Positions 41,196 through 53,459 of a DNA stretch of 64,000 nucleotides are shown piece by piece. The first letter of the stretch is position 1. Each line of letters begins with the position of its first letter. Under the pieces are notes generated by a model. It made no database searches, had not been told where the DNA came from, and was given only the letters and a program-made list of their open reading frames with translations. The stretch is from Candidatus Paceibacterota bacterium (GTDB lineage Bacteria; Actinomycetota; Actinomycetes; Nanopelagicales; Nanopelagicaceae). The position numbers and the translations under genes were made by a program. The stretch is from assembly GCA_035530615.1 (NCBI GenBank), contig DATKUL010000001.1:372001-436000 (forward strand). Direction: 5' to 3'.

Positions 41196-42158
41196 ATGCG
41201 TGTTTTGATCACCGGAGGGGCCGGATTTATCGGTTCGCACCTCACAGACCGCCTTATTTCAGATGGCCATGACGTAACCGTCCTGGACAACCTCGAGACC
41301 GGGCGGATCGAGAATCTCGCCGATGCCAGCACGTCGGGTCGGCTCACCTTTATCGAAGGTTCCGTCCTTGACGCCGAGGTGGTCGAGAAGCAGGTGGGTG
41401 AGGTCGATTTTATTTATCACCTCGCAGCCGCGGTCGGCGTATTTAACATCCTCGAGCGGCCACTCGCCAGCTTGATGACGAATCTTCGAGGCACAGAGAT
41501 CGTTCTGGATGCAGCACTCAAATATTCGCGCCCAATCCTTGTGGCAAGCAGCAGCGAGGTTTACGGAAAAAATACTTCTGACTCTCTCCACGAAGACGAC
41601 AACAGAATTCTTGGCTCGCCTCTCATGATCCGCTGGTCTTATAGCCAGGCGAAGGCGATTGATGAAACCCTCGCTTACGCCTACTGGGAAGAGAAGAAAC
41701 TTCCAACGAGAATTGTCCGCTTCTTCAACACCGTTGGCCCCCGCCAACTTGGCGCCTATGGCATGGTCGTCCCCCGCTTTGTTGCAGCGGCGCTCGACAA
41801 TGAAGAGATTACGATATACGGGGATGGCAATCAGACCCGATGCTTCGGTCACGTTGCCGACATTATTGATGCGCTCATATCTGTTGCAAATTCTGAGAAG
41901 ACAATCGGCACTGTGGTCAATATCGGAAATGATGAAGAGATTTCAATCATCGATCTGGCCAAGAAAATCATTGATATGACAGAGTCCAAGAGTAAAATTG
42001 TCTATCTCTCATACGCCGATGCCTACAAATCTGGGTTTGAGGATATGGAACGTCGCGTGCCCAATATCCAACGGATTAAGAAACTAACTGGATGGGCACC
42101 GACTCGAAATTTAGAGACCATCATCCGCGATGTCGCCGATCACCTTCGATCGAATTAG
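41196..42158 (+). CDS. NAD-dependent nucleotide-sugar epimerase/dehydratase
   Basis: The 320-residue extended SDR has G-G-A-G-F-I-G-S-H-L at the N-terminus, S-S-S-E-V-Y-G and the catalytic Y-S-Q-A-K, and R-F-F-N-T-V-G-P-R. The sequence most resembles UDP-glucuronate decarboxylase or UDP-glucose 4-epimerase-like enzymes; the exact sugar cannot be decided. It overlaps the convergent dehydrogenase gene by 4 nt; both serve nucleotide-sugar supply for a surface polysaccharide. Confidence 0.83.
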   Translation: MRVLITGGAGFIGSHLTDRLISDGHDVTVLDNLETGRIENLADASTSGRLTFIEGSVLDAEVVEKQVGEVDFIYHLAAAVGVFNILERPLASLMTNLRGTEIVLDAALKYSRPILVASSSEVYGKNTSDSLHEDDNRILGSPLMIRWSYSQAKAIDETLAYAYWEEKKLPTRIVRFFNTVGPRQLGAYGMVVPRFVAAALDNEEITIYGDGNQTRCFGHVADIIDALISVANSEKTIGTVVNIGNDEEISIIDLAKKIIDMTESKSKIVYLSYADAYKSGFEDMERRVPNIQRIKKLTGWAPTRNLETIIRDVADHLRSN

Positions 42159-43393
42159 AGTCGAACTACATTCTCTAAATCTTTAAAAGTTCCGGTGCAA
42201 TCAAGGATCGGAATTCCTCGCGCAGCGATCACTTCCACATGCATGCCTGGTTGAGCCGTTGCAACGACAGCCACATCGCACTTCCACGTGAGATCCACAG
42301 GACGCGAACCCTCCCAATCAGGAACAAGTGGATCGTGCCAGGCCACTATGTATCCATGAGCAATGAGATCGTCACGAAGTGCAGTGACAGGAGTCTCACG
42401 AATATCTTTGACGCCTGGCTTATATGCGACGCCAAGAATCAACACCCTTTTCTTTCCGTTGCTCTCGCCCGCGAGTTCGCGGACCCGCTTTGAAACATAG
42501 AGAGGCATTCCCAAATTGATCTCATCGGAATGTTCAATAATCGAAGCTTGGCGACCATTTCTCTCGGCCCACCACGACAAATACATGGGATCAACCGGAA
42601 TGCAGTGTCCACCAACGCCCACGCTAGGGGTAAATTTCATAAAGCCATACGGCTTTGTAGCAGCAGCCTCGATCACCTCATGGACGTTGATATTTTGGAC
42701 TGAGCAGAGTTGAGTCAACTGATTGACAAGGGCAATATTGACCAATCTAAAAGTGTTCTCCAACAGCTTTGCAGTCTCTGCTATTTCAGGAGACGAGACT
42801 TCCACAACCTCATCGCAAATGGTGCGATAAAAATCAACCGCAAGTCTTGTCGAATGCTCGTCAATGCCGCCCACAAGCCTTGGCGTGTTTTTCTGATGCC
42901 ATTTAACATCCCCAGGATTGACTCGCTCTGGCGCCACCGCCAAAAAGACCTCTACATCGCCCGATGACTTTCCAGCCACAATCAAAGGCGCGATGAACTC
43001 CCTCAACGTGCCAGGAAATGAAGTGGATTCATTAATGACCAATGTCCCACTTGTAAGGTGTGGCGCAATATCGGTGACCGCCCTCTCCAAAATACCAAGG
43101 TCGGGCTGTCTCGCATCATCTAACGGTGTTGGCACGCAAATGATGACGACTGATGCTTCCTTCACATCGGCAGCAGAATTCGAAATCCGATAGGCACCAC
43201 TTGCCAGCACAGATTGAACCTCCGACGAAGGCACATCTTCAACGGGGCTGACCCCCGCGGCTATGCCTGTAAATTTTGAAGGAGAATTCTCAACCCCAAC
43301 AACCTTCCAACCACCTGCGATGGCGGCCATCGCCAGCGGAAGTCCCACATACCCTTGACCGATAATGGCAATCGTTTTACTACGCTGCGACAT
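42155..43393 (-). CDS. UDP-sugar 6-dehydrogenase (UDP-ManNAc/UDP-glucose type)
   Basis: The 412-residue protein has an N-terminal NAD site I-G-Q-G-Y-V-G-L-P-L-A, N-E-S-T-S-F-P-G-T, a helical middle with E-N-T-F-R, and the catalytic cysteine in G-V-G-G-H-C-I-P-V-D-P. The C-terminal domain carries G-V-A-Y-K-P-G-V-K-D-I-R-E-T-P. It makes a UDP-uronate for surface glycans. The family WecC/UDP-ManNAc dehydrogenase fits best. The polymerase-like gene ends upstream by 11 nt, so cotranscription is likely. Confidence 0.88.
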   Translation of the reverse strand: MSQRSKTIAIIGQGYVGLPLAMAAIAGGWKVVGVENSPSKFTGIAAGVSPVEDVPSSEVQSVLASGAYRISNSAADVKEASVVIICVPTPLDDARQPDLGILERAVTDIAPHLTSGTLVINESTSFPGTLREFIAPLIVAGKSSGDVEVFLAVAPERVNPGDVKWHQKNTPRLVGGIDEHSTRLAVDFYRTICDEVVEVSSPEIAETAKLLENTFRLVNIALVNQLTQLCSVQNINVHEVIEAAATKPYGFMKFTPSVGVGGHCIPVDPMYLSWWAERNGRQASIIEHSDEINLGMPLYVSKRVRELAGESNGKKRVLILGVAYKPGVKDIRETPVTALRDDLIAHGYIVAWHDPLVPDWEGSRPVDLTWKCDVAVVATAQPGMHVEVIAARGIPILDCTGTFKDLENVVRL

Positions 43394-43403
43394 GAGGAAA
43401 ACC

Positions 43404-45233
43404 CTATCCTTTTATAAGAGCAGCGGCCGCAAGATCTTCGCCACTTCCGGGTGCCAATTGAGCTATCCTTTCCGCCATGACCTTCGCCTTCGTAACATCC
43501 TGAAGGGCAAGGTAATCCCGCACGATTTCGAGCATATTTTTGGCGTTCCATGGATCCATTCCAATGACACGCAGCCGGTAAGGGATGGCTAATTCATACT
43601 TCTCTGACATTTCGTATGCCGAGGCCGTGAGAAGGTTCCCTAAAAAAGATTTTTGATCCTCCTCCAAGACCACCTTCGTGAATCTCAATGCCTGGTCAGG
43701 GTCGGAAATGCGAAGGGAAAGGTCTGCGAGCGAAGTGAGGGTCTGAGAATTCTTTGGAAAACCATTGGCCACGTCATTTAGCCGTGTTACATACTGCTCT
43801 TTAGTTAGACCATCGCCGTTTCCAGAGAGCCTATAGATGGATCCCGATGTGCGGATGATTGGCACCATAAGAGTGAGCGTCGCAATCACAAGAACCAACG
43901 AAGCAATCGGCGCTATGTATGAAGAATTGTCCTGCTTGGGTTGACGAGCCGATTTACCTTTACCCTTCTTACTCTTATTGGATAAAACCATCTCCGGCTC
44001 ACGAGAGTGAGTGATCGCATAAAGTGCCCCTCCGGATATCCAGAACCAGATTGTGACACCCAAGTTATCAATCGAAATCAAAGAGACTAGTAGCAGGGCA
44101 ATCCAGATCGAGAAAAGTGCCGCGATTTCAATCTGCTCGCGTGCTGAAGAGGATTTTATAGCTTTCAATGCCGTCCAGAAGATGAGAGCCAGAAGAAAAA
44201 GGTAGGGAATGATTACTAGCAAGCCACCAGTTGCGAGCAATTGAAGAAAGACATTGTGTGCATTATCCGTATTTACTCCCTGCACCACTTGCACTTGTGG
44301 AGCGTACTGAGGGTAATTCTCTGCAAACCGTTCTAGTCCCAGGCCAAAGAAAGGATGGGATTTGAACATACTCAAAGCCGCGCGCCAATAATCCACACGA
44401 TTGGTCAGGGATGCTCTGTAGACGAAAGTTGCGAGTGGTCCATGGTTTACAACCCCGAGAAATACCAGCACGCCTCCAATGAAAACTCCTATGGTGGCAA
44501 TAACTCCGAGTCGCCTCTGATATTGCCAGATTCGAACGAGCACCACGATGCTCGTTCCTATGGCGAAGGCGACAAGGCCCTGAAGAGAGCCGGAGCGTTT
44601 TACTACGAAAAGTTCCAAGAGAAGAAGGACGCCGGCACCAACTCTATATTTCATTTCATTCTTTACGAGCAAAAACCAGACCGTGGCGATGGCAGCGACA
44701 CCAACGAGCGCAGAGAAAAAGTCGGGATTTCCTACGGTGCCGACTACTGGACTGTATAGATGAGTCCACCTGAACGGATCGTGCCCCGTAGTTTGCAGCA
44801 GACCATAAATGGTGGATAATATCCCCACAATCAATAGAGATGTTCGTAATTGGTTCAAACTCTTAAAATCAAAACAAATCATTGCTGCAAACGAAATAAC
44901 CGCTAGTGCGATATACGTAAACGCTCCATTATTGCGATGGGTTCCACCAAAGAACGCGGTGTAACGTACGTCAGTCAAAATTGCAGCTACGATCATCGAT
45001 AAAACCACTGCAAGCAGCGCCCATTGGGCAGGTTCGAATTTTCTTGACCGATCGTAGAAAATGGCCACCGCAAGGCTTCCGAATATCCAGGCAGAGAGTG
45101 TGAGAACCACAAACAGCTTGGGCAAGTTCATTGGGTCGTCTAGTGGAAACCAGAAAGCAAAAGTCGCCATTAACCCAGTAATGAGAACACGTCGGCGCAT
45201 CTGTTGTGATTGATCCTGCGAAAGTGAAATCAC
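43404..45233 (-). CDS. O-antigen ligase/polymerase-like membrane protein with TPR-like C-terminus
   Basis: The 609-residue protein has about 11 to 12 transmembrane helices in residues 15-450, with the Wzy/WaaL-type periplasmic loop (F-F-G-L-G-L-E-R-F, N-A-H-N-V-F-L-Q-L). A charged cytoplasmic stretch (K-S-K-K-G-K-G-K) and then a helical repeat region (about 500-609) resembling TPRs follow. Such proteins polymerise or transfer glycan chains at the membrane. Its partner genes supply sugar nucleotides. Exact reaction unknown. Confidence 0.8.
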   Translation of the reverse strand: MISLSQDQSQQMRRRVLITGLMATFAFWFPLDDPMNLPKLFVVLTLSAWIFGSLAVAIFYDRSRKFEPAQWALLAVVLSMIVAAILTDVRYTAFFGGTHRNNGAFTYIALAVISFAAMICFDFKSLNQLRTSLLIVGILSTIYGLLQTTGHDPFRWTHLYSPVVGTVGNPDFFSALVGVAAIATVWFLLVKNEMKYRVGAGVLLLLELFVVKRSGSLQGLVAFAIGTSIVVLVRIWQYQRRLGVIATIGVFIGGVLVFLGVVNHGPLATFVYRASLTNRVDYWRAALSMFKSHPFFGLGLERFAENYPQYAPQVQVVQGVNTDNAHNVFLQLLATGGLLVIIPYLFLLALIFWTALKAIKSSSAREQIEIAALFSIWIALLLVSLISIDNLGVTIWFWISGGALYAITHSREPEMVLSNKSKKGKGKSARQPKQDNSSYIAPIASLVLVIATLTLMVPIIRTSGSIYRLSGNGDGLTKEQYVTRLNDVANGFPKNSQTLTSLADLSLRISDPDQALRFTKVVLEEDQKSFLGNLLTASAYEMSEKYELAIPYRLRVIGMDPWNAKNMLEIVRDYLALQDVTKAKVMAERIAQLAPGSGEDLAAAALIKG

Positions 45234-45406: not shown

Positions 45407-47149
45407 TTATTTCTTTGCGAGGATCTTCTTGATCAAGTTAGCGATCGTCGTCAACTGCGCGCGTACTGAAGCGAGCAAGCTGTCGACACGGAGACCAAGA
45501 GCAACAACTGCAGCAGTTGCGGCATCAGCGGACTCTTGGGCAGCTACTGCAGCAGCAGTTGCTTCCTGAGCGGCTGTGGTAGCGGCATCTGCAGCATCTG
45601 CTGCGTAGTTAGCTGCATCAGTTGCGGCGTTAGCTGCATCTGTTGCTGCATCAGAACCTGGGTTTGTTACATCGAATGTCGCTGTAACAGTTCCCTTTGT
45701 GGTGCTATCAGTAGAAGCACCTTCAGTACCAGTTACTGTAACTGATGCTGTCGCAACAGGTGCATAAAGGGTGTACGTAGCAACGCCGCCCGCAAATACA
45801 ACTGAAGCTGTTGGAAGGGTTCCGGTAAGTGCAATGTTGCTGGTAACGCCGGTTGAAGAGAACGTTGTTGCATATGTTCCGTCTCCAACGGCAGTTCCAT
45901 CTGAACCCTTAGCTGTAACGGTTAGAACGACCTTCTCGCCTGCTGCATATGACGCTTTATCAGTCGACATTGTCAGCGTTCCGATGGTGGTCTTTCCAAC
46001 TGTAACCGTGAAGGTTGTTGAAACTGTTGGTGAAGTCGCCGCATTGCCAATGGTGATAACAGAAGTACCAACTGCAACACCAGTAACAATTACGTTAGTA
46101 CCACTGATCGAAACGGTAGCTACCGAAGTGGTAGCACTTGTTGCGTAGTAAGTACCAACTGAAGCAGCAACTCCAGCAGCATCCTTGCCAGTGATAGCTA
46201 CGGTGTCGGTTGATCCGATACCAATAACTGTCTTAACAGGTGTTGCGGTGAAGGAAGCAAGCGCTCCTGAGAAGGTAACCGTCTCAGTTGAGATTACGGT
46301 TGTTCCGATAGCAACTGTGATGGTCGCAACGCCTGAGGTTCCGTCAGAGAAAACGCCAATAACGTTCTGTCCAGCAGTACCTGTGAGTGCGCGGCCGGTT
46401 GCAGTCTGAGCAGCAACACCAGCTACGTCACTGATTGCCAAACTTCCTGGTCCAGAAATTGAAACAGAGAGAATGGCAGTAGACGTTAGGTCTGTGCCGG
46501 CAGCGTTCTTTGGGGTTACAACGATTGAAGCAGCCTGAGCTGTCGCGTTGATAGTCATTGCAGCAGCAACGGTTGCGTCAGAAGTGGCTGCGGTGGCTTC
46601 GCCCGCGTTCAAGAACGAGGTTGAAGCAGCGGCAGTTGCAGCGCCAACATCGGCAACTGTGACAGTCCAGGTCTGAGCTGTTGAGTTAAGTGGCTGTGTG
46701 GCGTCAGCTGCATCAGTTGGGGTGAACTTAATTACATAAGTTCCAGCCTTGGTTGGTGTAAATGTTGCCGTTGCCGTACCACTTGTGAACAAGCTGTTCG
46801 CATTGTTTCCAACTGAAAACTTGTTGGTGCCAATGTTTGAGCCTGAGTTGGTTCCAGAACTGAAGGTAAATGCTGGAAGCTCTGAAATTGTTGCACCAGA
46901 TGGTGTACTTACGAAGCTAGCTGTAACTGACATGGATTCTGCTGCTGCTCCGGCAAGGAATGACTGGGTAAGAGTCACGGCTGTGACTGCCGTACCCACG
47001 GTTCCTGTGGAAGCTGCTGAAGATAGTGTCAAGGAATCTGCTTGGAAGACGTGAACCGCCGCAGATGATGGCACTACAGACAATAGACCGAAGCCCATTG
47101 CAGCAACAGCAACAAGCGCTACGCGCTTGATTGTTGTCTTTGTAGACAT
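45407..47149 (-). CDS. S-layer-like secreted surface protein
   Basis: The 580-residue protein has a signal peptide (K-R-V-A-L-V-A-V-A-A-M-G-F, cleavage near S-S-A-A at about 30), a long Ser/Thr/Ala/Val-rich region with Ig-like or BIG-type strands, and a C-terminal alanine-rich helix (about 485-560, repeats of A-A-T-D-A-A-N) ending in L-I-K-K-I-L-A-K-K. The composition, size and position fit a major surface-layer protein; S-layer function is inference. ATG at 47149 behind GAAAGGACAC is chosen over the open frame to 47281. A strong terminator follows. Confidence 0.7.
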   Translation of the reverse strand: MSTKTTIKRVALVAVAAMGFGLLSVVPSSAAVHVFQADSLTLSSAASTGTVGTAVTAVTLTQSFLAGAAAESMSVTASFVSTPSGATISELPAFTFSSGTNSGSNIGTNKFSVGNNANSLFTSGTATATFTPTKAGTYVIKFTPTDAADATQPLNSTAQTWTVTVADVGAATAAASTSFLNAGEATAATSDATVAAAMTINATAQAASIVVTPKNAAGTDLTSTAILSVSISGPGSLAISDVAGVAAQTATGRALTGTAGQNVIGVFSDGTSGVATITVAIGTTVISTETVTFSGALASFTATPVKTVIGIGSTDTVAITGKDAAGVAASVGTYYATSATTSVATVSISGTNVIVTGVAVGTSVITIGNAATSPTVSTTFTVTVGKTTIGTLTMSTDKASYAAGEKVVLTVTAKGSDGTAVGDGTYATTFSSTGVTSNIALTGTLPTASVVFAGGVATYTLYAPVATASVTVTGTEGASTDSTTKGTVTATFDVTNPGSDAATDAANAATDAANYAADAADAATTAAQEATAAAVAAQESADAATAAVVALGLRVDSLLASVRAQLTTIANLIKKILAKK

Positions 47150-47168
47150 TTGTGTCCTTTCGATTGTC

Positions 47169-47257
47169 GCTACTGAGACGTTCTCAATAGCGGCTTTTCG
47201 ATGCATCGCACGTGCTGATGCATCAAATCCCCCACCGTGTATCCGGACTCGGCGGGG
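47169..47257 (-). promoter_or_regulatory. structured 5' leader of the S-layer-like gene
   Basis: Within the 132-nt gap before the gene, three stems are visible: GCTACTGAGA...TTCTCAATAGC (47169-47191, one mismatch), two GATGCATC arms (47200-47207, 47217-47224) around GCACGTGC, and CCCCACC/GGCGGGG (47230-47236, 47251-47257, one mismatch). A structured leader may stabilise mRNA or attenuate it. Confidence 0.5.
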
Positions 47258-47280
47258 AAAACTAGATGGAAGGGAGATCA

Positions 47281-48705
47281 TTATGGCGTCCCTCCCTTTC
47301 CTGATTCAGTGACTTGGATGGCTTGGGCAAGGATTTGAGTCTTGCCGGCAGTGAGAAGAAGGCGTGTTGTAATGGTCTTCGGGGCTGCAGACAAATCATA
47401 TCCGTTTCCGCTTGTTGCCAAAAGAAAGTCTGACTTCACGGCCGAATCGATGACCATTGTCACAGTCATGAGGTACTGACCATTGGCTAGGCGCTCAGTA
47501 TAGGTAGTGCTGGACGCCACATTTAACGAGGTCCAGGTGCCATCAATACCTGCAGCTGGTGCTACGGAATAACTAGTGCCAGTCCCATCGACAGTGATCG
47601 ATTGTGCGAGAAGAATATTTGGACCGCCGCTCAACGTCATCGCCTGGTTGCTCAGCACAATTCCGGCATCAGTGAGTATTGGCGCATCTTTGCCAACAAA
47701 GAGGCTGCCAATCTGACCCAGTGAATCAGTGATAGTGAATCCTGTAGGAATGCCGTACTTATCCAGTCCTGGAAATGAAATTCGGGCCGCTTTAACTGCA
47801 AAACCACTGACCAGTCCATTGACCTTTTTGTTTGGAGTCGAAGCGACTGCCAAAGGCGTCTGTGAAGCAGGACTCTCTTTCGTTGGCGTCGAAACTCCAG
47901 GAGTAGGTTCTGAAGGAGTAAGAGGTGCATCGATCGCAGATGATGCTCCGGCAACTGGACCAGATGCAATCTGGGTGTTGGAGGCAGGGATAAGAGATCC
48001 TTCATTGCCTGTCATTGAATTGAATCCGAGGAAGGCTGTAATGACAAGGACGAGAGAAAGCGCGGCCTTGGAAGACTTCTTCGCGATCTCTGACGTCTTT
48101 CGGTAGGTGGTGGAGAGAAGATCCAGGGCGGTGAGGCCACGCTCTTCATCCAGAACCAGCTCGGAGAGAATCCGACGCAGCGATGCTCGAGCGCGAGAAA
48201 CAGTGTGGCGAACTGCGGAGGTCTTGATTCCAAGTTCGGCGGCGATCTCTTCAGTGGAGCGGCCTTCAACTTCCCACATGACTAGAGCAGCGCGCTCTGC
48301 AGGAGAGAGAAGAGCAAGTGCCTGGCGAATAATCGCCGCATCCTCGGCTGCACTCATGGCGACTGAGTGATCCCCGTCGTTCTGCCAGGTGGCCTCGACC
48401 TCTGCAGCCACATCATCGAGAAGGACGAGGTTGGGACGGCGACCTTCCATGCGGAAGAGGTCAATGCAGAGGTTTTCGATGGTGCGGTGCAGATAAGAAA
48501 GTGCGTGCTCTGTTGACTCCAACTCAGGAGCGGCGAGCATGAATTTGATCAAGGCATCTTGAGTGATTTCCTCTGCCTTGGCTGAGTCTTTGAGGACACG
48601 ATTTGCGTGAACGAGTAACTCCGAGCGGTGCTCTGTGTAGAAAGCACCGAGTTGGGCAACAGTCCAGACCATCGGACTTGCCTCAACAACGGACCTTTTC
48701 GCCAC
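47281..48705 (-). CDS. ECF sigma factor fused to a transmembrane segment and an exported domain
   Basis: The 474-residue protein is one frame from GTG 48705 (GAAGGA 8 nt before it). Residues about 20-88 are sigma region 2 (A-E-E-I-T-Q-D-A-L-I-K-F, Y-L-H-R-T-I-E-N-L-C-I-D-L-F-R) and about 120-180 region 4 (L-S-P-A-E-R-A-A-L-V-M-W, A-A-E-L-G-I-K-T-S-A-V-R-H-T-V-S-R-A-R). Residues 214-229 are a hydrophobic helix, then a Ser/Pro/Thr linker and a beta-rich 200-residue outer domain without a known family. Sigma factor and sensor thus share one chain. It sits directly upstream of the S-layer-like gene. Confidence 0.85.
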   Translation of the reverse strand: MAKRSVVEASPMVWTVAQLGAFYTEHRSELLVHANRVLKDSAKAEEITQDALIKFMLAAPELESTEHALSYLHRTIENLCIDLFRMEGRRPNLVLLDDVAAEVEATWQNDGDHSVAMSAAEDAAIIRQALALLSPAERAALVMWEVEGRSTEEIAAELGIKTSAVRHTVSRARASLRRILSELVLDEERGLTALDLLSTTYRKTSEIAKKSSKAALSLVLVITAFLGFNSMTGNEGSLIPASNTQIASGPVAGASSAIDAPLTPSEPTPGVSTPTKESPASQTPLAVASTPNKKVNGLVSGFAVKAARISFPGLDKYGIPTGFTITDSLGQIGSLFVGKDAPILTDAGIVLSNQAMTLSGGPNILLAQSITVDGTGTSYSVAPAAGIDGTWTSLNVASSTTYTERLANGQYLMTVTMVIDSAVKSDFLLATSGNGYDLSAAPKTITTRLLLTAGKTQILAQAIQVTESGKGGTP

Positions 48706-48907
48706 TTGAATATCCTTCGTAACCGGTTTGTGGTGCAGAGGTAACCGTCGTTGCCTCTACTTGCTACTACGAATCTAACGGTAGATTGTCGCGGAGGCTG
48801 GACAAAACGGACATTCCGCCAAGTTCTTAAGGAACTCACACGTTTAGGCACAACTTTGCCGATCCCTGTACTGAAGTTGAGCCGTAACCGTCAATAATGC
48901 ATTATGA

Positions 48908-49034
48908 CGCAGATTTGCGAAAAAAGTCACGACCTAGCCTGCTATTTCACGAGAATCTGCGCTATCATGCAGAAATTGAATGTTTGGAGGCAGATATGGG
49001 AGAAAAAAAGGCTAATCTGCGCATTAACGCAGAT
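48908..49034. promoter_or_regulatory. candidate HipB operator sites
   Basis: The heptamer CGCAGAT or its complement ATCTGCG occurs four times around the hipB start: 48908-48914, 48955-48961, 49015-49021 and 49028-49034. The last two form an inverted repeat (6-nt spacer) inside the hipB coding region, the first two a wider inverted pair. HipB-type proteins repress through such palindromes. Confidence 0.6.
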
Positions 49035-49289
49035 ACTAATCCAAGCCTAGGAAGTTCAATCCGCTCTCGGAGACGTGTCCTTAACCTGACGCAGGAAAAT
49101 CTTTCTGACATTTCTGGAGTGAGTCTGCGTTTGGTGCACGAGATTGAGCACGGGAAAGATGTAGTTCAACTCGCTACTCTCATCAAGATACTTTCCTGCC
49201 TTGGACTGCATCTACAACTCTCCATTGGAGCTGCCGATGCCGTCACCATTGACCCGGCCATTGCTGCGTTAGGGCACGGTGAGAAATGA
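48996..49289 (+). CDS. hipB: HipB-like Xre-family antitoxin
   Basis: The 97-residue protein has an Xre helix-turn-helix: S-I-R-S-R-R-R-V-L-N-L-T-Q-E-N-L-S-D-I-S-G-V at 19-40, then R-L-V-H-E-I-E-H-G, as in HipB antitoxins. The ATG at 48996 is chosen because TTGGAGG precedes it; the frame extends to 48897. It overlaps hipA by 4 nt (ATGA). Confidence 0.82.
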   Translation: MGEKKANLRINADTNPSLGSSIRSRRRVLNLTQENLSDISGVSLRLVHEIEHGKDVVQLATLIKILSCLGLHLQLSIGAADAVTIDPAIAALGHGEK

Positions 49290-50500
49290 GTTCGAAGGGT
49301 CTGGCCGAACTTCGCAAAGTAGATAGAGCCGACGTTTATAAACAAGGGCGCCATGCCGCCACATTGACGCGCACACCAGATGGGGTCACGTTTGAATATC
49401 TATCCACGTGGATCAGCCAAGGTGGTCCGGCAATCGCTAGCACCTTGCCGGTTTCCGATATTGCCCAGGTTCGACCTGGCGGAGGAGTACCTGCCTATTT
49501 TTCTGGGCTTCTCCCCGAAGGAAGACGACTTGGTGCTCTTCGCAGAGAGATAAAAACAAGTGCAGATGACGAACTCTCACTCCTACTGGGAGTGGGAGGC
49601 GATGTCGTCGGCGATGTGCAGGTTCTACCCGAAGGCGCAAAACCTGGCGAGGTACCTCCTCGTATAGAAGTGAGTGATTTTTCCGAGATTAGTTTTACTC
49701 ATTTGTTGGCGGAGCAAGGAATTCGAACCGAACGAGTCGGCATTGCAGGATTTCAAGACAAGGTTAGCGCGGCCGTTCTCAACTTGCCCGTCGCCCAACG
49801 TGGTGCTCGATTTATTCTTAAACTCAATCCGCCAGAATTTCCGCATGTCGTCGAAAATGAAGCATTTTTTTTACGCGCCGCAAAACTAAGTGGTTTAAAT
49901 TCCGCCTCTGCCCGAATAGTTAGCGACGCAGATGGAATGTCCGCACTTCTGGTCACACGATTTGATCGTGTGACAACCCGCGAAGGGGGACCAACTACTC
50001 TGGCAATGGAAGATGCGAGCCAGGCCCTTGGTAGGCCACCTGCCGATAAGTATCTAATTTCTTGCGAGGATGCATTCAGAGCCCTGTCGAACCTCTGCCT
50101 TGCTCCACGTCCAGCTGCGCGCATCTTCATAACCCAACTCGTCTTTGCCTATCTGACAGGGAATGGCGATGCGCACGCGAAAAACTTTTCCGTCTTGCAA
50201 CTCCCCACTGGAGAGTGGCAGCCATCGCCGGCCTACGATCTTCCATCCACCTACTTCTATGGGGACAGCTCAATGGCAATGACCATAGGGGGAAAATCTA
50301 CCGATCTCGACGGAAGTGATTTTGTCGGACTCGGTGATCACTTGGGATTACCAGAGCGAGCAGTTCGACGCGTTATCAACGACATAAGTGATCGGGTGGA
50401 CCTATGGCTTCCGCTTAGAAACGAGCTGCCTTTTCCCATCGCGAATACCGCCAAATTTGTCAGACTCGTTAATTATCGACGCAAGAGGCTCAAGGACTAG
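49286..50500 (+). CDS. hipA: HipA-like serine/threonine kinase toxin
   Basis: The 404-residue protein has HipA-family kinase landmarks: an N-terminal HipA couple domain (P-A-Y-F-S-G-L-L-P-E-G-R-R), the G-I-A-G-F-Q-D-K-V-S glycine-rich region, K-L-N-P-P (ATP lysine), the catalytic G-N-G-D-A-H-A-K-N-F (D and N) and a late Y-D-L. HipA phosphorylates glutamyl-tRNA synthetase and stalls translation, causing dormancy. Overlaps hipB by 4 nt. Confidence 0.87.
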   Translation: MSSKGLAELRKVDRADVYKQGRHAATLTRTPDGVTFEYLSTWISQGGPAIASTLPVSDIAQVRPGGGVPAYFSGLLPEGRRLGALRREIKTSADDELSLLLGVGGDVVGDVQVLPEGAKPGEVPPRIEVSDFSEISFTHLLAEQGIRTERVGIAGFQDKVSAAVLNLPVAQRGARFILKLNPPEFPHVVENEAFFLRAAKLSGLNSASARIVSDADGMSALLVTRFDRVTTREGGPTTLAMEDASQALGRPPADKYLISCEDAFRALSNLCLAPRPAARIFITQLVFAYLTGNGDAHAKNFSVLQLPTGEWQPSPAYDLPSTYFYGDSSMAMTIGGKSTDLDGSDFVGLGDHLGLPERAVRRVINDISDRVDLWLPLRNELPFPIANTAKFVRLVNYRRKRLKD

Positions 50501-50540
50501 GAATCCACCTGAGAGGAGCCCTCAAGTTTTAGGCACAACC

Positions 50541-50572
50541 ATGTATACATGTTGAATTACTACAAATGTAGT
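50541..50572. promoter_or_regulatory. candidate ParD-type operator palindromes
   Basis: Two palindromes precede the antitoxin start: ATGTATACAT (50541-50550) and ACTACA-AA-TGTAGT (50559-50572). The spacing of centres is about 20 bp, two helical turns, and they end 12 nt before the ATG. Ribbon-helix-helix antitoxins bind such tandem palindromes. Confidence 0.55.
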
Positions 50573-50583
50573 AAGGTACTTTC

Positions 50584-50829
50584 ATGAGTATGCCGGTAAG
50601 ACTTGATAAAGAAACGTATGAACGCGCCAAAGCTGAAGCGGCAATAGAGCATCGCACGATTGCCGGCCAGGTTGAGTATTGGGCCAAGGTTGGTCGCACG
50701 GCGATAGATAACCCCGACCTGCCTATAGATTTCATCATTGATGTTCTCGCTGCACTGGCAGAACCGGCGTCAGAGAAGGTTCAACTTGTGCGGCGTGTAG
50801 AGCCATCGGAAATTCAGGAAAATAGTTGA
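50584..50829 (+). CDS. ParD-like antitoxin
   Basis: The 81-residue protein fits the ParD-like family: P-V-R-L-D-K-E-T-Y-E-R-A-K-A-E-A-A-I-E-H-R-T-I-A-G-Q-V-E-Y-W, the ribbon-helix-helix with the conserved R-(S/T)-I-A-x-Q-x-E-Y-W end. The acidic C-terminus should bind the toxin encoded next with overlapping stop and start. Confidence 0.82.
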   Translation: MSMPVRLDKETYERAKAEAAIEHRTIAGQVEYWAKVGRTAIDNPDLPIDFIIDVLAALAEPASEKVQLVRRVEPSEIQENS

Positions 50830-51104
50830 TCTATTCGGAGATTTTTTCCCATCGCTTTCTCCGTTCCTACAAGCGATTACACCCCAACCAACTCCGCGCA
50901 ATCCATGAAGCCCTCGAAAAAATCCTCCATGAACCCACAATTGGTAAACCGAAGAAGGGTGATCTGGCTGAACTCCTCGTATATAAATTCCATGTCACCG
51001 GAGGAGAATTCTTAATTGCCTACACGGTTAATGAATTAGTGGCACGGGTGACCTTCGAAGCAGTGGGCCCGTATGAAAACTTTTATCGCGATCTAAAGCG
51101 ATAA
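50826..51104 (+). CDS. RelE/ParE-type toxin
   Basis: The 92-residue protein has the RelE fold: F-S-H-R-F-L-R-S-Y-K-R-L, helix R-A-I-H-E-A-L-E-K-I, then K-P-K-K-G-D-L-A-E-L-L-V-Y-K-F-H-V and a terminal basic F-Y-R-D-L-K-R. The start is TTG at 50826, overlapping the antitoxin stop by 4 nt. It would cleave mRNA or inhibit gyrase; which cannot be decided. Confidence 0.82.
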   Translation: MIYSEIFSHRFLRSYKRLHPNQLRAIHEALEKILHEPTIGKPKKGDLAELLVYKFHVTGGEFLIAYTVNELVARVTFEAVGPYENFYRDLKR

Positions 51105-51125: not shown

Positions 51126-53288
51126 CTATTTGATCCGATAGGTCTTACTAAAGACAATCTTCTTGGCAATGGAGACAATCACAATATAGAGGCCCGGTTT
51201 CAGGGTGTTTTTCCCGATTTTAGCCTTTGACCCGTTGATGGTCACCGTGGCCGCGGCTCCGGTGACGGAGACCGTGAGGACGCGTTTGAGGATGTTGACC
51301 TTGACGATGGGGTTGGTTCCCGGCTGAGCGGTCGGGGTGGTGGTTGGCTTAGGGGTCGGCTTGGGGGTGGGTTTGGCAGTGGGCTTTGGGGTCGGGCCGG
51401 AGGGGACCAAGACTTGGATGGTGAAGGTCCTTTTCGCCCCGGCCAGGGTGGATGTGGGGGCTTGAGTGGCGGTGATTTTGGCGATCCCGATCCCGACCAC
51501 TTGAATCACCGAACCGGCAAATTTCACCACGGATAAATTAGCGGACTCATAACTCCACGGCGCAGTTGATGTCGAAGTAGGCGGAAGAATTTTCGGAATC
51601 GCTGACCCATAAACAATTTTAAGATTGGCAAAGTCGCCAGCAACGGAGCTCTCTTTGCCGGTTATCGTTGTTTGGACGGTATTGGATTGCGAATAGATTC
51701 CCGAAGGACTCTGCGTTGCACTCAGAGTTGAAACTCCAACTCCAACGATCACAACGGCGCCATCTTTTACAATTGCGACTTTCTTATTTGACGATGAGTA
51801 CGTCCACGTGCCACTCGAATCCGAGGTCGGTGGCTTGATCACGATTGGATCCTCGCTCACTCCACCATCGATTGGCGCGAAAGCACCTAGCGTCGGAATG
51901 TCTCCGTTGACGTGAACATTTATCGTTGCGGTTCCTGATTGCCAGAAAGATGTGGCGGCTTGCGTCGCAGTAATAATTGCCTTACCGGCACTCTTTACTT
52001 TGGCGACATCCCCCACAACTGCAACCACATCGGGGCGATCTGAAGAGAAAGTCCATGTGCCAGGTGAGGACGATGATGGCGGCGTTAAAGTGAAATCCGG
52101 GTCTCTTACGACTTTTTCAAGGTCACTCCACGTTCCAAGAGTGGGCGTCCCGACGACCGTGAAATTCATCGAAACTGGTTCGGATGGACCGTACGTACTC
52201 GTGGCAGCTTGCGTCGCGGTAATTTTAGTGACGCCTGGGTTGAGCATTGTGATCGTCGTGCCATTGATCGTTGCCACAGTTGGATCGGAAGAAATAAAAG
52301 TCCATGCACCGAGCGAACTAGATGTAGGTGAAGATAAAGTGACGGTGTGCGTCGTAGTTAAGTTGTAGGCAGTTGTTACATCCGGGAATGCGCCCACCGT
52401 TGGAAGGGCGCCTTGGATTGTCAGAGTCATCATCGCTGCCGCAGATGAAAAACCTCCGATCGGTGCTTGCGTAGCAGTAATAACGGTCGAACCAAATGCC
52501 AGCGGCGTGACGACATTTCCGACCAATCTGGCAACCGTTGAGTTTGAGGAGCTAAATGTCCAGGCACCCGGTGAGGATGAAGTCGGAGGGATGAGCGAAA
52601 GACTGGCGACACTGTCCTTCATAATTGTGATACTTCCGAAGGGACCGAGGGCAGGTTTGATCGCAATCACGGTGAGCGTCATAGGAACGGAAACTGAATT
52701 CCAATTCACTGACGCCCGTTGTGTCGCGGTAATAACTACCGTGCCCCCGTCCAACAAAGTCACCGTCTTGCCCGAGACCAGAGCAATCTGCGGATTTGAA
52801 GAGCTAAAAGACCAATCGGCATCCGAGGTGGATGTCGGCGCAGTGAGGGTGAAAGTTTTCGCAGTTATTTGCACGGACTGCGCGGGGAATACTCCAACTG
52901 TTGGAGTTCCGGCACTCACGCGGAGTTGAGTTGAACGCGAGCGTTCGGTAAACGTCCCAGATGCTGCCTGTGTCGCGGTAATCGTGGTTGTGCCAACAGA
53001 GTGAATTTGCGCAGTATCCCCCACGACCGTTGCAACGTTCGGGTTTGACGAGGTATAAGACCACGTACCAGGTGAGTTGGTTGTGGGATGAACGATCTGA
53101 ACCGACGTCACTCCATACGTCGCTGAGATGACGGGGAATGGCCCGAAAACCGTGAAAGTTGCTTGCGCCAGCGGAGGAATCACAATAGTTATGAGTGCTA
53201 GCACTACCGAAACAATTACACCTCGGCGAATCCGTTGAATGAGTCCATCAGTAAAAGGTCGTGGAGTCAGGAAAGTTGATTTTCGCAT
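51126..53288 (-). CDS. secreted protein with seven Ig-like repeats and a Pro/Lys/Thr linker
   Basis: The 720-residue protein has an N-terminal signal or anchor helix (about 22-42, cleavage at A-Q-A-T), then seven repeats of about 82-87 residues, each with P-P-T-S-S-S-x-G-x-W-T-F-S-S-S followed by V-A-x-V and I-T-A-T-Q-A, as in bacterial Ig-like (BIG2-type) domains. A P-K-P-T-P-K-P-T linker (about 645-665) leads to a small C-terminal domain. No sorting signal is seen. It is likely an adhesin or wall-linked stalk. ATG at 53288 is preferred; the frame opens at 53366. Confidence 0.72.
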   Translation of the reverse strand: MRKSTFLTPRPFTDGLIQRIRRGVIVSVVLALITIVIPPLAQATFTVFGPFPVISATYGVTSVQIVHPTTNSPGTWSYTSSNPNVATVVGDTAQIHSVGTTTITATQAASGTFTERSRSTQLRVSAGTPTVGVFPAQSVQITAKTFTLTAPTSTSDADWSFSSSNPQIALVSGKTVTLLDGGTVVITATQRASVNWNSVSVPMTLTVIAIKPALGPFGSITIMKDSVASLSLIPPTSSSPGAWTFSSSNSTVARLVGNVVTPLAFGSTVITATQAPIGGFSSAAAMMTLTIQGALPTVGAFPDVTTAYNLTTTHTVTLSSPTSSSLGAWTFISSDPTVATINGTTITMLNPGVTKITATQAATSTYGPSEPVSMNFTVVGTPTLGTWSDLEKVVRDPDFTLTPPSSSSPGTWTFSSDRPDVVAVVGDVAKVKSAGKAIITATQAATSFWQSGTATINVHVNGDIPTLGAFAPIDGGVSEDPIVIKPPTSDSSGTWTYSSSNKKVAIVKDGAVVIVGVGVSTLSATQSPSGIYSQSNTVQTTITGKESSVAGDFANLKIVYGSAIPKILPPTSTSTAPWSYESANLSVVKFAGSVIQVVGIGIAKITATQAPTSTLAGAKRTFTIQVLVPSGPTPKPTAKPTPKPTPKPTTTPTAQPGTNPIVKVNILKRVLTVSVTGAAATVTINGSKAKIGKNTLKPGLYIVIVSIAKKIVFSKTYRIK

Positions 53289-53459
53289 AAGGGAATTATC
53301 CCCGTTGTCTCGTGAGTTTCGGGGATTTAGCCACGGCTCACCGATAACAACTGTGTTATGAATCATTATGAAGTTAATCGCAATTGCCTGTTCTGAGTTG
53401 CTTCCATCATGAAATAGGAGAAGGCTTCAAGAGTTCGACGGTGAACGGAGAGGCCACCA

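Follow-up and report, generated by a model that had tools for sequence, protein, structure and literature searches.

A predicted membrane-tethered ECF sigma factor linked to an S-layer-like gene in Nanopelagicaceae

A sigma factor joined in one chain to a membrane helix and an outer domain raises the question of how such a protein would be restrained and which genes it would serve. An initial annotation of a Nanopelagicaceae genomic window (the whole stretch of 64,000 nucleotides analysed here) described one such chain, naming no strand, as an uninterrupted frame lying immediately before an S-layer-like gene. The reading that we prefer, to which we give an even chance of being right, is that of a one-component transmembrane sigma factor controlling its own S-layer-type operon, and its parts are set out below together with the alternatives.

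Architecture and conservation of the fused chain

The frame proved to be uninterrupted, with 474 open codons on the minus strand running from a GTG start at 48705, preceded by a GAAGGA Shine-Dalgarno sequence at 48718-48713, to a stop codon ending at 47281. Sigma regions 2 and 4, as annotated, were recovered by Pfam matches that both exceeded curated cut-offs (Table 1), and the region 3 model reached an E of only 0.11 and overlapped region 4. With regions 2 and 4 present and regions 1 and 3 absent, the protein belongs to the ECF (group 4) sigma factors, and TIGR02937 (sigma70-ECF) scored 75.3 bits against a cut-off of 42.9.

Table 1 Features of the sigma and S-layer-like genes in the window
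Feature	Position	Strand	Evidence
Possible activator site ATGTCCGTTTTGTCC, TGTCC direct repeat just upstream of the -35	48800..48814	-	conservation
Predicted ECF-type promoter: -35 CGACA, 15-nt spacer, -10 CGTAG	48767..48791	-	motif in 36/37 copies
Hairpin AGAGG...GACG...CCTCT at predicted transcript 5' end	48737..48758	-	covariation
ECF sigma factor with predicted membrane tether, 474 aa, start codon GTG	47281..48705	-	open frame, Pfam, orthologs
Sigma region 2 (residues 22-89)	48439..48642	-	PF04542 Sigma70_r2, E 1.3e-11
Sigma region 4 (residues 125-176)	48178..48333	-	PF08281 Sigma70_r4_2, E 1.4e-13
Predicted single transmembrane helix (residues 213-232), cytoplasmic side Lys-rich	48010..48069	-	hydropathy, 37 orthologs
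Ser/Pro/Thr/Ala-rich linker (residues 233-305)	47791..48009	-	composition; model pLDDT ~30
Beta-rich outer domain (residues ~306-470)	47296..47790	-	model pLDDT 87.6; without Pfam or PDB sequence match
Structured RNA leader of S-layer-like gene	47147..47262	-	covariance model R1, E 5.2e-28, single copy in own genome
Leader hairpin 1, loop around CCGGA	47228..47259	-	97% of cells paired; two-sided change in 10/11 pairs
Leader hairpin 2, loop AGCACGUGC	47197..47227	-	99.5% of cells paired
Leader hairpin 3, just 5' of Shine-Dalgarno AAAGGA (47160-47155)	47168..47192	-	covariation
S-layer-like secreted protein, 580 aa, start MSTKTTIKRVALVAVAA	45407..47149	-	signal peptide, C-terminus, composition
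Wzy_C / O-antigen-ligase-like membrane protein, next gene	43404..45233	-	PF04932, E 3.1e-19
UDP-sugar dehydrogenase, next gene after Wzy_C	42155..43393	-	PF03721, E 5e-35

The single hydrophobic helix of the initial annotation coincides with the hydropathy maximum of the chain, whose mean is 1.8 here and 1.6-2.3 in 37 orthologs; its sequence is near-invariant among them, and F225, G227 and N229 are invariant. The helix follows the sigma part at a short distance of ~30 residues and is flanked by KKSSK before and NE after, the latter leading into an acidic and Ser/Pro/Thr-rich stretch. The topology predicted from these flanks is N-in/C-out with one membrane passage. In a full-length model the sigma domain was confident, the linker, whose Ser/Pro/Thr-rich composition agreed with the annotation, was disordered, and residues ~312-470 formed an all-beta domain at a pLDDT of ~90, which modelled alone gave a pTM of 0.82 (pLDDT in Table 1).

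The annotated lack of a known family for this outer domain also held. Residues 221-474 searched alone against Pfam returned no match even at E<10, and the 37 outer domains searched in the same way returned no consistent family, carbohydrate-binding families included, although such profiles may miss a distant fold. No relative was found by a PDB sequence search and none at E<0.001 by Foldseek with the model, the best VIA-align Z of 4.8 (cystatin/NTF2-like) fell below the level of meaningful matches, and comparison of the outer domain with the S-layer-like protein itself found no relation.

An assembly or frameshift fusion of two genes was ruled out by 37 uninterrupted copies from many independent assemblies, including the complete chromosomes IMCC26103, IMCC26077 and IMCC19121 as well as Candidatus Planktophila lacus MMS-21-148; with these relatives and the near-invariant helix, none of the objections anticipated by the annotation (an assembly error, a lack of conservation or the absence of a real helix) applied. 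Sigma and helix together were present in 55 of 151 Nanopelagicaceae genomes, one copy each, and in 44 of the 83 high-quality ones. Searches recovered the outer domain from 52 genomes, in every case within the fusion frame or as a piece at a contig end, and never as a clear separate gene among the Nanopelagicaceae genomes searched.

The same order of sigma, helix, Pro-rich linker and outer domain recurred in a second actinobacterial family of the same class, in open reading frames of 412-612 aa. Profile-profile comparison aligned the chains of the two families end to end (E 1.4e-38), and the outer domain alone gave a weak but collinear match (E 3.3e-4, probability 38%). In both loci of this family having downstream DNA (L177 and L180), a large secreted protein follows, that of L177 with a sub-threshold Ig-like match; in L180 the sigma frame stops before any helix. 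Within Nanopelagicaceae, two complete genomes (L134:4766-5776 and L135:5454-6407) carry sigma and helix in a chain whose beta domain is replaced by a short C-terminal peptide, and these loci have a different S-layer C-terminus and a second leader class of similar overall fold, still with CACGUG in a loop.

Promoter and RNA elements of the predicted operon

ECF promoters combine an AAC-like -35 element and a CGT or GTC -10 element at a distance of ~16 nt. The initial annotation had placed the region to assay for transcription at 47150-47281, which instead holds a covarying RNA leader with many G-U pairs and no ECF motif; the promoter is predicted at 48791-48767, upstream of the sigma gene. There, a C[GTA]ACA-N15-[CT]GT[AC] motif of ECF-type layout precedes the sigma gene in 36 of 37 copies. 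Strict versions of the motif occurred once per locus and always before the sigma gene across 482 kb of loci, and in the window's own genome CGACAA/TTCGTAG occurs at this spacing at 48767-48791 alone, one further match having a different spacer. The promoter is predicted to serve both the sigma and the S-layer-like gene, and, judging from these searches, the sigma appears to have no clear target besides its own operon.

The type of -10 element also varied together with the recognition regions of the sigma. Copies with a -10 of the CGTA type carry 'LHRTIENLCIDLFRxEGRRPN' in region 2.4 and 'GIKESAVRHTVSRARASL' in region 4, and copies with a -10 of the TGTC type carry 'LRTSVTNLSLNIIRARGARPN' and 'NTSPANVRHILVRARKSM', respectively. 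Because the -10 type pairs with the recognition residues, autoregulation of the sigma and S-layer genes is likely; given that promoter and sigma are adjacent in the DNA, the match is consistent with self-recognition rather than proof of it, and the agreement between promoter and sigma in types A and B may reflect a few switches inherited together.

The TGTCC repeat upstream of the promoter is the sole exact match to this element within its own genome; it is near-invariant in type-A copies and absent from type-B copies. Its conservation in the former would fit a sigma part that no longer drives transcription, another factor at the repeat running the operon, a reading that we rate the least probable of those considered here: the core-binding and DNA-contact regions of the sigma are conserved and fit the promoter type, and type-B copies keep the promoter without the repeat. 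At the predicted 5' end of the transcript, the hairpin was paired in 88% of cells, 45 of them with two-sided changes, a result reached by 0 of 500 shuffles.

The spacer between the sigma and S-layer-like genes appears to hold an undescribed structured RNA absent from Rfam, in which the leader had no match near a gathering score; the matches returned lay far below it and were judged to be chance. In an alignment of 34 leader sequences, 98.1% of cells paired, with compensatory two-sided changes in 26 of 33 pairs (196 cells), and in hairpin 3 the corresponding values were 97.6% and 7 of 10 pairs. No shuffle reached the observed pairing, sliding the partners lowered it to 34-48%, and the folding z of the window's leader was -5.8 against shuffles. 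The covariance model detected the leader in 56 of the 151 genomes, mostly as a single copy directly after the outer-domain frame.

Since G-U pairs are common in it, the leader is best read as an RNA-level element. A DNA cruciform or recombination site is less likely as its main reading, since pairing in the leader tolerates G-U and a recombinase is missing from most of the loci retrieved, and a terminator is unlikely because no T-run follows. Stable 5' leaders are found on abundant mRNAs for surface proteins, and this leader may act similarly, stabilising or processing a highly expressed message. The loop of hairpin 2 (AGCACGUGC, within 47197-47227) holds a conserved palindrome, CACGUG or, as a compensated variant, UACGUA, which could permit kissing dimers or protein binding.

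The S-layer-like gene and outer-domain variation

In all 34 copies with enough flank, the sigma gene is followed directly, in the same orientation, by an S-layer-like gene, which bears out the annotated neighbourhood. The product of this gene in the window consists to 61% of A+S+T+V and contains no Cys, and the family has a near-constant signal peptide (MSTKTTFKRVALVAVAA...), a conserved C-terminus and an A/S/T/V-rich variable middle with a mean pairwise identity of 28%. Signal peptide, A/S/T/V-rich composition and low Cys content are features of S-layer proteins; these features and the neighbouring genes are the grounds on which 'S-layer-like' is a fair label for a protein whose lattice is putative. 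An alternative start at the ATG at 47281 is in frame here and not in other clades, and was rejected in favour of the conserved AAAGGA-ATG at 47149. The gene order with the Wzy_C-like and UDP-sugar dehydrogenase genes is shared with many relatives. In genomes without the sigma, most S-layer matches were fragments at contig ends, with the exception of G036, in which leader and S-layer start are present with no sigma upstream.

To relate the parts of the locus, distances between copies were compared over 14-26 loci that are not independent of one another. Outer-domain distance correlated with that of the S-layer C-terminus (r 0.74; 0.75 as a partial correlation given sigma distance; 26 loci), whereas sigma distance did not (-0.07; 26 loci), and in the 14 loci where every gene was available, controlling for sigma, Wzy and dehydrogenase left a partial correlation of 0.67. 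Given that the pairs are non-independent and that the Wzy neighbour also correlates, the apparent co-segregation of outer-domain type with the S-layer C-terminus is only suggestive.

These values bear on what the outer domain would sense. The sigma might drive the S-layer operon with an outer domain that responds to a glycan, a wall fragment, a phage or an antimicrobial rather than to the S-layer, a possibility that we consider unlikely but deserving of real weight: the operon includes the glycan genes Wzy_C and UDP-sugar dehydrogenase, and ECF52 sigmas have an outer carbohydrate-binding domain (PMC5826349). Against it, over the 14 loci the outer domain varies more closely with the S-layer C-terminus than with Wzy or the dehydrogenase, and no carbohydrate-binding family was matched.

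Several loci depart from the common arrangement. In L072, L050, L051, L052 and L053, a type-A sigma and promoter accompany an outer domain nearer to those of type-B loci (L057, L071 and L066), which suggests that sigma and outer-domain modules have been exchanged. In L052:2576-9187 the whole unit of sigma, leader and S-layer gene is duplicated in tandem. At L136:2949-8002 and L137:2824-9779, a further S-layer-like gene lies inverted relative to the first and is separated from it by a tyrosine recombinase, and inverted repeats of 83-94% identity span the leader end and signal peptide as well as the 3' ends, an arrangement that suggests invertible, phase-variable S-layer cassettes.

A possible signalling route and known tethered sigma factors

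No anti-sigma gene was found beside the sigma gene, the HxxxCxxC zinc-finger (ZAS) motif occurred in 0 of 37 copies, and the sigma protein had no Pfam match to zf-HC2 or FecR domains. With neither the motif nor an adjacent anti-sigma gene, the sigma is therefore probably restrained by tethering. The genome's second ECF sigma (G000:C3:361436-362094) forms an ordinary pair with the gene immediately after it, which encodes a zf-HC2 anti-sigma-like protein.

Starting from the architecture, topology signal, predicted promoter, leader and linkage that can be read in the DNA, we infer inhibition by tethering, sensing, cleavage and feedback as follows. The helix would hold the sigma at the membrane and keep it mostly inactive until the outer domain sensed that the surface layer or the envelope had changed and allowed it to act. 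Release would most likely occur by cleavage in or near the helix through the genome's one site-2-type protease; this single M50 protease, of a near-universal kind, permits release but proves nothing. The freed sigma would start transcription at its own promoter, yielding more sensor and more S-layer protein, and the 5' hairpin and leader hairpins would stabilise or process the transcript to give large amounts of coat protein. Of these steps, surface sensing and proteolytic release had been raised by the annotation and are plausible. The complete picture, a one-protein surface-layer homeostat with sensor, anchor and sigma in one chain, no anti-sigma, a single promoter, an outer domain matched to the coat C-terminus, a new RNA leader and, in some lineages, recombinase-linked cassette inversion, is put forward as somewhat less likely than not.

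Cleavage might also be dispensable, with a sigma active in the membrane that recruits RNA polymerase to the envelope and couples transcription with coat export. The ~30-residue distance between sigma and the near-invariant helix, together with the missing inhibitory domain and adjacent anti-sigma gene, would suit such a protein, yet we find this rather improbable, as IutY, the experimentally studied tethered ECF sigma, is cleaved (PMC8999054).

The annotation had called a fusion with this outer domain immediately before an S-layer-like gene striking; joined sigma factors, membrane helices and outer domains are already known in ECF52, ECF48, ECF53 and IutY (PMC8999054, PMC5826349). For the ECF52 member SCO4117 of Streptomyces coelicolor, positive autoregulation is suggested by a promoter motif together with a truncation mutant, and proteolytic release has been proposed (PMC5826349; PMC8999054). 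ECF52 proteins, also actinobacterial, likewise combine an ECF sigma, a membrane helix, a proline-rich stretch and an outer domain in one chain, but they are pleiotropic, their sigma and helix are separated by a zinc finger (pfam13490), and their outer part is a carbohydrate-binding domain (PMC5826349; PMC8999054), whereas the protein described here has the helix and proline-rich stretch with no zinc-finger/ZAS domain, an outer domain that matched no carbohydrate-binding family, a single predicted operon and S-layer linkage.

ECF48 and ECF53 are similarly actinobacterial ECF sigmas with C-terminal membrane-spanning extensions, described with a zinc-finger anti-sigma part (PMC8999054) that is absent here. 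That the present chain is an ordinary ECF52/ECF53-type fusion whose extension is an anti-sigma factor would agree with the identical order of sigma, helix, Pro/Ser-rich stretch and outer domain in the same phylum, but it is highly improbable given that HxxxCxxC is absent from 37 of 37 copies and that neither a zf-HC2 match nor a carbohydrate-binding domain was found. IutY of Pseudomonas putida (ECF243), activated by Prc/RseP cleavage (PMC8999054), likewise links its sigma to an extracytoplasmic sensor by way of a membrane segment; its extension, however, is a cell-surface-signalling anti-sigma for iron/siderophore (PMC8999054), and no match to the FecR-type anti-sigma extension of ECF243 was obtained here. 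The protein thus differs from the known fusions in its missing zinc-finger anti-sigma domain, apparent single-operon target and S-layer linkage, and may still belong to an existing numbered ECF group.

Nanopelagicales (acI) rank among the most numerous bacteria of fresh waters. A literature search returned no report of an S-layer or of the present sigma in Nanopelagicales. If the preferred reading of a tethered sigma controlling its own operon is true, these bacteria would control a surface coat, probably the chief place where they meet phages and grazers, through one chain joining sensing, membrane anchoring and transcription initiation, an example of a sigma that is tethered although no anti-sigma domain can be recognised in it; it would also offer a defined promoter/sigma pair for testing signalling from membrane to RNA polymerase and add an undescribed RNA family.

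Beyond the sigma gene, the window contains HipB/HipA-like and ParD/ParE-like toxin-antitoxin genes (48897-51104), which separate it from a gene for a Big_2-like surface protein (51126-53366); a gene of this kind adjoins the sigma in several relatives (L033, L036, L037 and L039).
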